NCBI GenBank assembly: GCA_029941865.1
Contig: JAPYTO010000047.1
Span: 1 to 34,057 of the forward strand
Reading direction: 5' to 3'
Origin: Fuerstiella sp.
GTDB taxonomy: Bacteria > Planctomycetota > Planctomycetia > Planctomycetales > Planctomycetaceae
DNA: 34,057 bases
Shown here: positions 147 to 31,628 of the stretch, piece after piece
How positions within the stretch are numbered: position 1 is the first letter of the stretch
How the letters are laid out: each line of letters starts with the position of its first letter
Program-made: the position numbers and the translations under genes
Notes under the pieces: model-generated
What the model saw: only the letters and a program-made list of their open reading frames with translations
Databases searched by the model: none
What the model was told of the DNA's origin: nothing

Positions 147-1373
147 TCAACGTGAGGTGCGACGGCTGCGTTGCTGCTGCATGTTTCGCTGCCTTCTTAG
201 CTGCATTTCCCGCGACATTTCCTGCATCCGAGCTCCCGGACCACCGCCGAATGAACCTCCGCCCGGCGGGCGAGGACCGCGGCGGCCGGACGTTCGACGG
301 GATCCACCATCACGATCGCGTTCCAGAGTAATCCGATAGGTCTGAGACACGGGCTTGCAGAACGTTTCTGCGTCATCGCACGCGAAGTACCTGACCTTGA
401 TCACAATTTCGTGCGGTGCACGGCTGTCGCCAGCGACATCGTCGCACAGATCCAGCAGGAACTCGCGGGGATCTGCGTCTGCATCGACTTCAACGTCAGG
501 GCCTTCGACCGAATCGTCGGCCACAATAATTCCCGTAGTGCTTTCCACCTCAAAGACGACCGGCATTGCTCTGTTGTTCCAGTGGACCTTATACAACGGG
601 TCCAGAAAAAATCCGATGTAAAGCTGGCCGTGTCCGGTGCGGAAGAAATCAGCATCAACTTCGGCACGTAGCTTCACGTAGAAGGGTTCACTTGATGCTT
701 CCATCATCGGTTCGGTCAGCACTGGCGTCATCTGTCCCGGCAATTTCACACGGTCAACAATTCCCGTCGCGGCTGTCTTTGGTGGCGCGAGCGGTCTCAT
801 GTTCAAATCAGCGATCGTTGTCTCACGTCGCACGGCACCCACAAGACCCTCAAGGTCCGCTCGCAGGTCACTCGGACTGCTCCATTGACGCGACACGACA
901 AGATTGCCGTCGGGGTCAAAAACGAACTCTGAATTCGGACGGTCGCCAAGGGCGTGCTTCAGCACGTTGTCCATGGAATCGCAGATCCAGTTGATGCGAG
1001 TTCCCAGCTTTTCCTTCGCCTCAGCCACATGCATGAGTCGCTCATCCAAGGTCACCGGGGCGACGTAGCGATTGGTTTCCGGATGAGCAAGTGTCTTGTA
1101 GACGTAGTAAAACCTGACGCCCTTATCCGAGTAATCGCGTTCAACCGTCTCCAGACCGGAGACGTTTCTGAGAAACGGTGGTCAGGTCAGACAACCAAAG
1201 ACAAGCACAGAATATTCACCACGCAGTTCGTTCAGCGAAAATTCGTGGCCGTCTTCGTCGTAGACCACTACGTCCGGCAGTTCGGATCCCAGCTGAGGAA
1301 GTCCGCCTGGGGGCTGTGCGAAGGCAACACGACCGCACAGCACGGTGATGGCGAAAAGAGTTGCTGTCCGCAT
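147..1373 (-). CDS. Iodothyronine deiodinase-like selenoprotein, secreted, with DsbD-alpha-like C-terminal domain
   Basis: Read through one in-frame TGA at 1182-1184, this encodes 408 residues. Residues 1-19 form a signal peptide (cleavage near AFA-Q). A thioredoxin-fold domain follows: LPDVVVYDEDGHEFSLNEL (32-50), then VFGCLT-U-PPF with U at residue 64. Deiodinases carry SCTUPPF at this place, and the frame stays open across it with matching sequence after it (FYYVYKTLAHPE; WICDSMDN; FVFDPDGNLVVS near 150-160). Cys61 and U64 form a CxxU pair. Residues about 226-348 resemble the N-terminal DsbD alpha domain, with Cys332 and Cys339 spaced like its redox pair, followed by a Gly/Arg/Gln-rich tail. 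A gene caller would report two pieces (147-1055 and 1182-1373). The redox substrate is unknown; an iodinated compound is only a guess. A frameshift or pseudogene is unlikely because the frame never changes. Confidence 0.88.
1143..1166 (-). promoter_or_regulatory. Bacterial-type SECIS hairpin of the deiodinase-like gene
   Basis: In the mRNA, a perfect 7-bp stem (CGUCUCC with GGAGACG; 1164-1158 and 1152-1146) is capped by the loop GGUCU (1157-1153). Below it, a bulged G (1145) is followed by two A-U pairs. The loop begins 24 nt after the UGA and starts with G, which fits the known bacterial SECIS geometry. E. coli fdhF has the same GGUCU loop contacted by SelB. A second short hairpin (1177-1163, loop UCA) overlaps the base and could compete with or remodel the lower stem. 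Confidence 0.8.
1182..1184 (-). other. In-frame UGA read as selenocysteine (residue 64)
   Basis: The minus-strand codon TGA sits between Thr63 and Pro65, at the catalytic Sec position of deiodinase-family proteins. Coding similarity continues on both sides in one frame, so recoding explains it better than termination. Confidence 0.87.
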
Positions 1374-5517: not shown

Positions 5518-6084
5518 ATGCCAAATATCGCTGCTGATAAACCTCGCTGGAGATCCACCACCGTTCTGGCCGTGCGTCATCAGGGCCGGATTGTCCTGGG
5601 GGCCGACGGACAGGTCACGTACGGCAACACAATCATGAAGTCGGACACGAAGAAGCTTCGACGAATGCTGGATGGCAAGGTACTGGTCGGCTTTGCCGGA
5701 TCCACGGCCGATGCCTTTGCTCTGATGGAGCGGTTTGAAGAGAAGGTGAAGGACTATCCCGGTAACATCGCTCGCGCGGCCACCGAACTGGCTCGTGACT
5801 GGCGTACGGACAGGGCACTTCGAAAACTGGAAGCCATGATGATCGTCGCCGATGCAGAGCTTTCATTGCTGCTGACGGGGCAGGGCGACGTGGTTCAGCC
5901 AACCGATGGAGTCGTCGGCATCGGATCCGGCGGTCCTTACGCGACGTCTGCCGCCAAAGCGTTGGTGAAGCATTCCGATCTTTCCGCAGAACAGATCGTT
6001 CGTGAGTCACTGGCGGTGGCTGCAGAAATCGACATCTACACCAACAACAACGTCATCGTCGAGGAATTGGAATCGTCGACGTGA
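5518..6084 (+). CDS. hslV: HslV, peptidase subunit of the HslUV ATP-dependent protease
   Basis: This is a 188-residue Ntn-hydrolase with the threonine N-terminus TTVLAVRHQGRIVLGADGQ. Thr14 is the expected nucleophile, so a 13-residue leader has to be removed, unlike E. coli HslV where only Met is lost. The conserved DTKKLRRM supplies the active-site Lys, and GSGGPYATSAAKAL is typical of the family. It forms the dodecameric proteolytic core in the cytoplasm and is activated by HslU, encoded 206 bases downstream. The ATG has no clear Shine-Dalgarno sequence. Confidence 0.95.
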   Translation: MPNIAADKPRWRSTTVLAVRHQGRIVLGADGQVTYGNTIMKSDTKKLRRMLDGKVLVGFAGSTADAFALMERFEEKVKDYPGNIARAATELARDWRTDRALRKLEAMMIVADAELSLLLTGQGDVVQPTDGVVGIGSGGPYATSAAKALVKHSDLSAEQIVRESLAVAAEIDIYTNNNVIVEELESST

Positions 6085-6290
6085 GTCTAGAGTAAGCCGC
6101 TGAATCTGTCGTCCGAAATGCGGCCACGTTGCTGTTTCAGGGACGCCCTCAAATCCACTGCGGGGATCACACAACCAGATTCAAGTGACGCTCTGAATCG
6201 ATTGCCCGGCTCTGGTTGGGCAATACAAAAAATGCGTGCCAAACCAACATTGTACTTTCAATAAACGACAACTCCACACCAACCGAAAAC

Positions 6291-7667
6291 ATGTCAGAAA
6301 ACACAACCCCGTTGACACCTCATCAGGTCGTCGAAAAACTCAGCGAACACATCGTTGGACAGGACAGCGCCAAACGAGCGGTCGCCGTAGCCCTCAGGAA
6401 TCGCTGGCGCTGGCAGAATCTTTCTGACGAGATGCGCAAGGAAGTCACCCCGCGCAACATCCTGATGATTGGTCCCACGGGAGTCGGTAAGACCGAAATT
6501 ACACGGCGACTGGCCAAGCTGACAAGTGCTCCGTTCGTCAAGGTCGAAGCGACCAAGTACACAGAAGTCGGCTATTACGGTCGCGACGTGGAAAGTGTGA
6601 TCCGAGACCTTGTCGAAGCCGCCATCGGACTCGTCCGTACGGCCAAGCGAGCTGACATTGAAGAGGAAGCCAAACGTGGCGTCGAAGATCGTCTGCTGGA
6701 ACTTCTGGTTCCCTTCGAACCGTCATCATCGCTTTCGTCGACTGACGAAAATGATAAAGACGCGGAATCGCAGCAGTCCAAACACCTACGGACCGTCGAA
6801 AAGTTTCGAGACATGCTGCGAGACGGCAAGCTGGAAGACCGCATGGTCGAACTGTCCACGGAACAACGAAACTCGCCCGTGCAGGTCCTCACAAACATGG
6901 GCGGCATGGAGCAGATGGATATGGATCTGCAGGGCATGCTGGACAAAATGATGCCCAAACAGAATACGTCACGAAGACTTACCGTGGCCAATGCTCGGCG
7001 AGTCCTGCATGAGCAGGAAGTGGAATCCTTACTCGACAAGGACAGCATTCAGGAAGAAGCCATCCATCGCGCCGAAGAAACCGGCATCGTCTTCATCGAC
7101 GAGATCGACAAAGTCTGCAGCAGCGGCGAAGGCAGCAAGTCTGCGGACGTCAGTCGCCAGGGAGTCCAGCGCGATCTGCTGCCCATTGTCGAAGGAACAA
7201 CCGTTCAGACACGGTACGGATCGGTTTCCACCGAGAAAATCATGTTCATCGCTGCCGGCGCGTTTCATCGGTCCAGACCGTCGGACCTGATGCCCGAACT
7301 GCAGGGACGTTTTCCCATTCGTGTGGAACTGAGCGATCTGACCAAAGAAGATTTCGTTCGTATTCTGACCGAACCCTCCGGTTCCATCACTCGGCAGTAC
7401 GTCGAATTACTGGCCGTTGATGGAATCACGGTTGAGTACACGGACGACGGACTGCATGCGATAGCCGAAATCGCCTTCTTTGTGAATCAAACGACTCAGA
7501 ACATTGGAGCTCGGCGTCTGCAGACGATCATGGAACGCCTGCTGGAAGACGTCAGCTACGAAGCTCCCGAATGCGGACACAAGACGGTCGTTGTTGACGA
7601 AGCCTACGTGAATGGCAAGCTGGACGACATCCGCAAAGACGAAGACCTCAGCCGCTTTGTGCTTTGA
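6291..7667 (+). CDS. hslU: HslU, ATPase subunit of the HslUV protease
   Basis: This 458-residue AAA+ unfoldase starts best at the ATG at 6291 (MSENTTPLTP); the longer frame opens at a TTG at 6216 with unrelated sequence. It has Walker A GPTGVGKT (61-68), the pore-loop region KYTEVGYYGRDV with its GYVG-like motif, a variable I-domain (about 110-235), Walker B IVFIDEIDKV (about 266-275), and the sensor region RFPIRVEL. The C-terminus ends RFVL, the tail that docks into HslV and opens its active site. It converges with the next gene, with only 30 bases between the stops. Confidence 0.96.
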   Translation: MSENTTPLTPHQVVEKLSEHIVGQDSAKRAVAVALRNRWRWQNLSDEMRKEVTPRNILMIGPTGVGKTEITRRLAKLTSAPFVKVEATKYTEVGYYGRDVESVIRDLVEAAIGLVRTAKRADIEEEAKRGVEDRLLELLVPFEPSSSLSSTDENDKDAESQQSKHLRTVEKFRDMLRDGKLEDRMVELSTEQRNSPVQVLTNMGGMEQMDMDLQGMLDKMMPKQNTSRRLTVANARRVLHEQEVESLLDKDSIQEEAIHRAEETGIVFIDEIDKVCSSGEGSKSADVSRQGVQRDLLPIVEGTTVQTRYGSVSTEKIMFIAAGAFHRSRPSDLMPELQGRFPIRVELSDLTKEDFVRILTEPSGSITRQYVELLAVDGITVEYTDDGLHAIAEIAFFVNQTTQNIGARRLQTIMERLLEDVSYEAPECGHKTVVVDEAYVNGKLDDIRKDEDLSRFVL

Positions 7668-31017: not shown

Positions 31018-31628
31018 ACCGCATCGTTCTGGAAGTGTACTCCGACTACATCTGACCATGGTGCTATCTCAGTACCGTGCGTATTGAAAAACTGCGAACG
31101 GCGTGGGACATCGACGTGCGCTTTGTCCATTTCCCCCTGCACCCGGAAACGCCTCCCGAAGGCCTGACTCTGGAACAACTGTTTACCGGTCGAGGCATCG
31201 ACATTACGGCGTCACAGGCCCGCATGAAACAGCTGATGGATAACGAAGGGCTGCCGTACGGCGAACGGACGATCACGTATAACAGCCGCCTGGCTCAGGA
31301 ACTTGCCAGCTATGCGGTCACGCAACCTGGCGGAGAGAAAATCCACGACCAGCTGTTTCAAGCCTATTTTGTTGACGGAACGAACATCGCGTCCGTCGAC
31401 AATCTCATCGATATTGCAATCAGCATTGGCCTGTCCGAAGAAGAATCCCGGGATATCCTGCTGTCCCGCCGGCATCAAGCAACCGTGGACACCGACTGGA
31501 ATCGCACGCGAGACCTTGGACTGACAGGCGTGCCAGCGTTCGTGGTCGGCCAGCACGGCGTCACGGGAGCTCAACCGTACGAGGTACTGGAACGACTGCT
31601 CGAACAGTCCGGTGCGAAACGCGGGTGA
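31014..31628 (+). CDS. DsbA/FrnE-like thioredoxin-fold selenoprotein (UPWC active site)
   Basis: Read through an in-frame TGA at 31053-31055, this gives 204 residues beginning [19 protein letters not shown]. FrnE-type DsbA proteins have SDYVCPWCYLG here, so Sec14 replaces the first Cys of CPWC and Cys17 remains. The rest matches the family: a helical insertion (about 65-150) and the cis-Pro-containing strand [23 protein letters not shown] near the end. There is no signal peptide, so it should act in the cytoplasm, where FrnE proteins are linked to thiol redox and oxidative stress. A gene caller would begin at a later codon (about 31077) and lose the active site. Its start overlaps the DUF1501 stop, so the genes share an mRNA. 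Sequencing error is the main alternative. Confidence 0.88.
31053..31055 (+). other. In-frame UGA read as selenocysteine (residue 14)
   Basis: The TGA stands at the first position of the C-P-W-C motif and is flanked in frame by YSDYI and PWCYL. The nucleophilic Cys of this family is the residue replaced. Confidence 0.86.
31057..31101 (+). promoter_or_regulatory. Candidate SECIS hairpins of the FrnE-like gene
   Basis: Two competing stems are seen. The first pairs 31057-31065 with 31071-31079 (nine pairs, two of them G-U, loop AUCUC) but begins only two bases after the UGA. The second pairs CCGU (31075-31078) with ACGG (31098-31101) and CGUA (31080-31083) with UGCG (31093-31096) across a G-A mismatch. 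Its loop UUGAAAAAC starts 28 nt after the UGA, within the usual spacing, but the G is third in the loop, not first or second. The evidence is weaker than for the deiodinase-like gene. Confidence 0.5.

Follow-up and report, generated by a model that had tools for sequence, protein, structure and literature searches.

Deiodinase-like selenoproteins of bacteria were reported in 2005 in a survey of the Sargasso Sea (PMC1088965), and a 2026 review covering 119 families and subfamilies gives, in the part available to us, UxxC as the motif of the bacterial deiodinase-like group (PF00837; PMC13188914). These two sources, as far as their consulted sections go, bear out the remark of an earlier note on this DNA that such proteins have been noted in surveys. 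Selenoproteins are also reported in the accessible part of a planctomycete genome paper, and no paper treating deiodinase together with Rhodopirellula was found in the library searched. Among the vertebrate enzymes, deiodinase 1 with Cys replacing Sec126 was directly shown to form a bond linking residue 126 to the proximal Cys124 (PMC9141512), and the proton relay of deiodinase 2 (Dio2) comprises Ser127, Thr129, Tyr157, Glu160, His162 and His182 (PMC11592359). Here we describe a gene in a 34,057-nucleotide stretch of Fuerstiella sp. DNA (the window) whose product probably combines a deiodinase-like selenocysteine (Sec) domain with a second, distantly DsbD-alpha-like domain.

An in-frame TGA at codon 64

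The gene occupies positions 147..1373 of the minus strand, as delimited by its frame and its relatives. This frame, 1373..147, comprises 408 residues and contains a sole internal TGA at 1184..1182, corresponding to residue 64, and it reads MRTATLFAITVLCGRVAFAQ...VLVFGCLT-TGA-PPFLRNV...RRTSR-TGA. Re-reading of the frame showed that the coordinates and motif given in the earlier note, which had described a single minus-strand frame interrupted by TGA, are correct. Under the standard code the same stretch yields two ORFs, 1373..1182 (63 aa) and the GTG-started 1055..147 (302 aa), just as that note had expected of standard annotation; gene callers that take TGA as a stop would split such genes. 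The terminal stop varies among the nearest relatives (TGA, TAA or TAG), as expected for a true terminator.

The codon for residue 64 is TGA in all 38 relatives fetched from a scan of public genomes, and the frame is kept on both sides of it at whole-protein identities of 41–82%, indicating that a frame spanning this TGA with a conserved downstream part does not arise by chance. The same TGA is found in two near relatives (L024 and L025, 80–82% identical) and in a same-genus genome (L068), which excludes the misread TGC or TGT that had been raised as an objection. In a sample of 348 same-class genomes, matches were present in 44, most of them with TGA. By comparison, seven relatives lack the stop (G242, G349, G355, G452, the second copy of G464, G339 and the divergent G334) and carry TGC or TGT at this codon, so that homologues with either Sec or Cys at residue 64, which the earlier note had proposed to look for, both exist. 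Genome searches found no selA in G242, G349, G452 or G339, all with Cys forms, while G355, G464 and G334 have the Cys form despite the presence of selA; selA was present in every searched genome holding the fused TGA form. In the tree, one set of three Cys forms nests inside a Sec clade on well-supported branches, indicating a change from Sec to Cys in that group. G061, a genome 90% complete in which selA was not found, holds a distant TGA form (L063) that lacks the second-domain motif.

The machinery for Sec incorporation is encoded in the window's genome, where contig 9 carries selA, selD and tRNA-Sec (anticodon TCA) and contig 120 carries selB, giving a positive answer for each of the four genes, selA to selD, for which a check had been suggested. 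The selD frame on contig 9 (L022) is 770 residues long and has, as judged by eye, a pyridine-nucleotide-oxidoreductase-like N-terminal part, and is thus a fused selD.

Downstream of the UGA, a candidate bacterial SECIS apical hairpin (1147..1163, minus strand) of the form GUCUCC-GGUCU-GGAGAC begins after 18 bases, with a small GGUCU apical loop whose G is invariant. Pairing holds in 90% of cells over 36 distinct sequences, both-side changes occur at three pairs, and none of 500 shuffles matched the observed paired share or covariation score; controls slid along the alignment reached at most 57.5% of cells paired, with slides of –1 and –2 giving a similar covariation score. Furthermore, synonymous codon diversity falls to its minimum among 236 five-codon windows exactly at +7..+11 (0.254, versus a mean of 0.845 and an sd of 0.087), on codons of the hairpin. 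Pairing is partly lost in the Cys relatives: 5–7 of the 7 pairs are kept in 63 of 65 Sec sequences, versus 1–5 in the seven Cys sequences. Minimum-energy folding of 66 bases from the UGA region failed to pick out the hairpin (z –0.05; mixed folds), so energy alone is no evidence for it, and covariation and the codon freeze are; Rfam gave no match within the window. On this comparative sequence evidence, the TGA at residue 64 (1182..1184) is almost certainly decoded as selenocysteine and the gene is a single selenoprotein.

Domain architecture of the predicted protein

The N-terminus carries a probable signal peptide (residues 1–20; 1314..1373, minus strand), read as a hydrophobic stretch ending in AFAQ. 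Hydrophobic N-termini ending in AQ are also seen in many aligned relatives, and the protein is probably secreted.

Residues 26–181 (831..1298, minus strand) are predicted to form a thioredoxin-fold domain of the deiodinase/ResA/peroxiredoxin type, as indicated by Pfam, a profile search of the PDB, the predicted structure and Foldseek. Pfam places the domain in the AhpC-TSA/Redoxin superfamily; the window protein marginally passes PF00578 AhpC-TSA (26.3 bits, cut-off 26; 7.9e-6) and scores 16.2 bits with PF00837 T4_deiodinase, below the cut-off of 27; at E up to 1, T4_deiodinase matches 31/31 members, the best at 5.2e-8. The 'deiodinase family protein' model NF038285 likewise matches 31/31 members (best 1.3e-21) and covers the redox domain of the window protein, whose 46.3 bits fall short of the 250-bit cut-off and leave it outside that family; L104, a relative that lacks the second domain, clears this cut-off at 363 bits. 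Among solved structures, the domain profile retrieved deiodinase 3 first (2.2e-7), ResA second (9.7e-7) and also deiodinase 2 (4.7e-5), in keeping with the likeness to the SCTUPPF motif, with the Cys shifted to give CxxU, that had been claimed from the sequence. In the profile alignment, GCLT-U-PPF is matched with GSCT-C-PPF of deiodinase 3, and Sec64 with both the Sec position of deiodinases and the first Cys of the ResA CxxC. Structure prediction gave a confident model, with a mean pLDDT of 83.4, that places Sec64 at the start of the first helix of the domain; its Foldseek matches include the C-terminal part of DipZ, ResA and deiodinases, with target TM-scores of 0.72 to deiodinase 3 and 0.76 to deiodinase 2.

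Around the active site, the putative partner of Sec64 is Cys61 (1191..1193, minus strand), invariant in the relatives' alignment and located at –3 to give CxxU, with Phe67 at +3. Of the Dio2 relay, Thr63, Tyr92 and His97 are kept, Ser127 and Glu160 are replaced by Cys61 and Leu95, respectively, and no conserved His was found at the place of His182, a region that is poorly aligned; Pro98 also matches the deiodinase active site. The N-terminal domain is deiodinase-like but, by the scores tested, not a member of the deiodinase family. Since it lies about as near to ResA/TlpA and retains the proton relay only in part, 'deiodinase-like' is a label for fold and motif, not for substrate.

The deiodinase-type sequence noted after the TGA belongs to this domain; the C-terminal half proved to be a separate domain and not deiodinase sequence. 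Residues 205–352 (318..761, minus strand) are predicted, when folded alone, to form a beta domain (pLDDT 90.7) of the immunoglobulin-like type. PF11412 DsbD_N matches 20/25 members (best 3.2e-7), and the window protein alone is unmatched. Foldseek gave weak matches that include DsbD-alpha structures amid other beta sandwiches scoring alike, none passing 0.001 and all with low TM-scores, and a profile of the C-terminal domain searched against PDB sequences returned only a chance-level lectin match. Taken from sequence and model, the second domain appears to be distantly DsbD-alpha-like, which goes beyond the first account of the locus. It contains a cysteine pair, Cys332 and Cys339 (CDDAETFC; 357..380, minus strand), that recurs in this or a variant form at the same place in 67/68 full-length members; the exception (L050) goes out of frame close to where its contig ends. 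The six residues between the two cysteines make a wider spacing than that of E. coli DsbD-alpha. The remaining Arg/Gly-rich tail (residues 360–408; 150..296, minus strand) is of low confidence, with a pLDDT of 42–65 over most of its length. EF-hand families match up to 25/31 members, at the tail position in many relatives, and do not match the window protein.

The relatives recovered from public genomes belong nearly all to Planctomycetota, the few labelled Acidobacteria, Verrucomicrobia or Gammaproteobacteria being metagenome bins, and the nearest relatives of the window gene, by both the genome scan and the tree, are Fuerstiella bins. Two copies of the fused gene are found in G318 and in G325, and one in the window's genome. 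In G457 and G251, the fused gene has a second deiodinase-like gene no more than about 1 kb away in the same orientation, with TGA in the former (L112; GSFT-U-GPF) and Cys in the latter (L096). Single-domain planctomycete genes in G243 and G319 (L107 and L109) encode GSCT-TGA-PPF, the exact vertebrate motif, followed by YI(A/R)EAHP; L109 scores 126 bits with PF00837 (1.4e-36), and neither has a window-like hairpin at the same place (1–2 of 7 pairs). Elsewhere in the window, a DsbA-like thioredoxin-domain protein (31080–31625, plus strand; PF01323, 3e-23) adds a thiol-redox gene to the contig, and a proteasome-family subunit and the AAA ATPase (AAA_2) that comes after it make up an HslVU-like pair (5521–7664, plus strand).

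A proposed redox relay and its alternatives

We consider it reasonably likely, as an explanation of the whole locus, that this is a secreted selenoprotein carrying its own reductase relay. SelB and tRNA-Sec would decode the UGA at codon 64, directed by the downstream hairpin, a step strongly supported by comparison. As the nucleophile, Sec64 would reduce the substrate, for which peroxides and oxidised thiols are the likeliest candidates; Cys61 would then attack the oxidised Sec to give a Cys61–Sec64 selenenyl-sulfide, by analogy with deiodinase 1, and the Cys332/Cys339 pair of the DsbD-alpha-like domain would regenerate the selenol with electrons from DsbD. The relay through the fused domain to DsbD is, in our judgement, about evenly poised; its grounds are the DsbD_N matches in members, the cysteine pair in 67/68 and the single DsbD with a membrane domain encoded in the window's genome, while the distance of the DsbD-alpha match and the wide cysteine spacing weigh against it. 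The gene neighbourhoods of the relatives showed no conserved neighbours linking the gene to a pathway. The most likely function is thus that of a secreted peroxidase or thiol reductase that may be recharged via Cys61, the fused domain and DsbD; a thyroid-hormone substrate is unlikely.

The ranking of ResA as second-best profile match (9.7e-7) and near the top by fold, together with the resemblance to the C-terminal part of DipZ, would also suit a ResA/TlpA-like thiol-disulfide reductase, acting, for instance, in the maturation of cytochrome c or the repair of disulfides and using Sec for speed. However, the second Cys of CxxC is here Phe67, the partner sits at –3, unlike in ResA, and cytochrome maturation genes do not recur as neighbours, so that we regard this role as unlikely. 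Less likely again is that the same selenoprotein catalyses reductive dehalogenation and so works in the manner of a deiodinase, with phenols carrying iodine or bromine in sea water as possible substrates. Such an activity would fit the top profile match to deiodinase 3, the TM-scores to deiodinase 3 (0.72) and deiodinase 2 (0.76), and the correspondence of Thr63, Tyr92, His97 and Pro98 to deiodinase active-site residues, but the replacement of Glu160 by Leu95 and of Ser127 by Cys61 and the absence of a conserved His at His182 argue against it, ResA structures are equal or better by fold, and no recurrent neighbours point to dehalogenation. By comparison, a non-selenoprotein locus has next to no probability: the two ORFs obtained under the standard code are what it would predict, but the TGA in 38/38 relatives together with the conserved downstream frame ruled out a sequencing error, a pseudogene or two separate genes, and the Sec/Cys exchange, the Sec machinery and the hairpin count against it as well.

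Returning to the secreted selenoprotein with its own relay, we put forward a broader proposal more tentatively. The fused proteins could represent a class of planctomycete cell-envelope seleno-enzymes in which a CxxU deiodinase-type domain is joined to a DsbD-alpha-type electron acceptor, the periplasmic selenol being powered from cytoplasmic thiols via DsbD, often with EF-hand calcium control and possibly with halogenated substrates. Because the proposed electron donor is on the same chain, the catalytic cycle could be tested in a single protein.

Comparison with known systems

The window protein shares with the deiodinases Dio1–3 the G-x-x-T-U-P-P-F motif, the thioredoxin fold, a Tyr and a His-Pro after the second strand, and a Cys near Sec. 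The differences are that Dio1–3 have this Cys at –2 and a membrane anchor, whereas the window protein has it at –3 and a probable signal peptide, retains the proton relay only in part and contains the extra DsbD-alpha-like domain. The single-domain planctomycete genes with the vertebrate motif SCTUPPF bear on the origin of the animal deiodinases. ResA, TlpA and DipZ are alike in fold and in the position of the nucleophile, but use CxxC in place of U-P-P-F with an upstream partner Cys. Like the predicted second domain, the DsbD N-terminal domain (PF11412) combines an immunoglobulin-like beta fold and two paired cysteines; in DsbD it is joined to a membrane part, while the distant domain of the window protein is fused to a Sec domain.

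The bacterial deiodinase-like selenoproteins are close in kind, with an in-frame UGA, a bacterial SECIS, a deiodinase-type thioredoxin domain and both Sec and Cys forms in the parts of the sources available. Compared by description, their UxxC (PMC13188914) differs from the CxxU of the window protein, which has Phe at +3, and the consulted sections of PMC1088965 and PMC13188914 do not mention a second domain. The fused form, with CxxU and a DsbD-alpha-like domain, is absent by description from the list in the portion of PMC13188914 consulted and appears to be new relative to those sources, although members may have been included in earlier surveys with the second domain unnamed. The bacterial deiodinase-like selenoproteins, known since 2005, thereby gain a fused CxxU variant.
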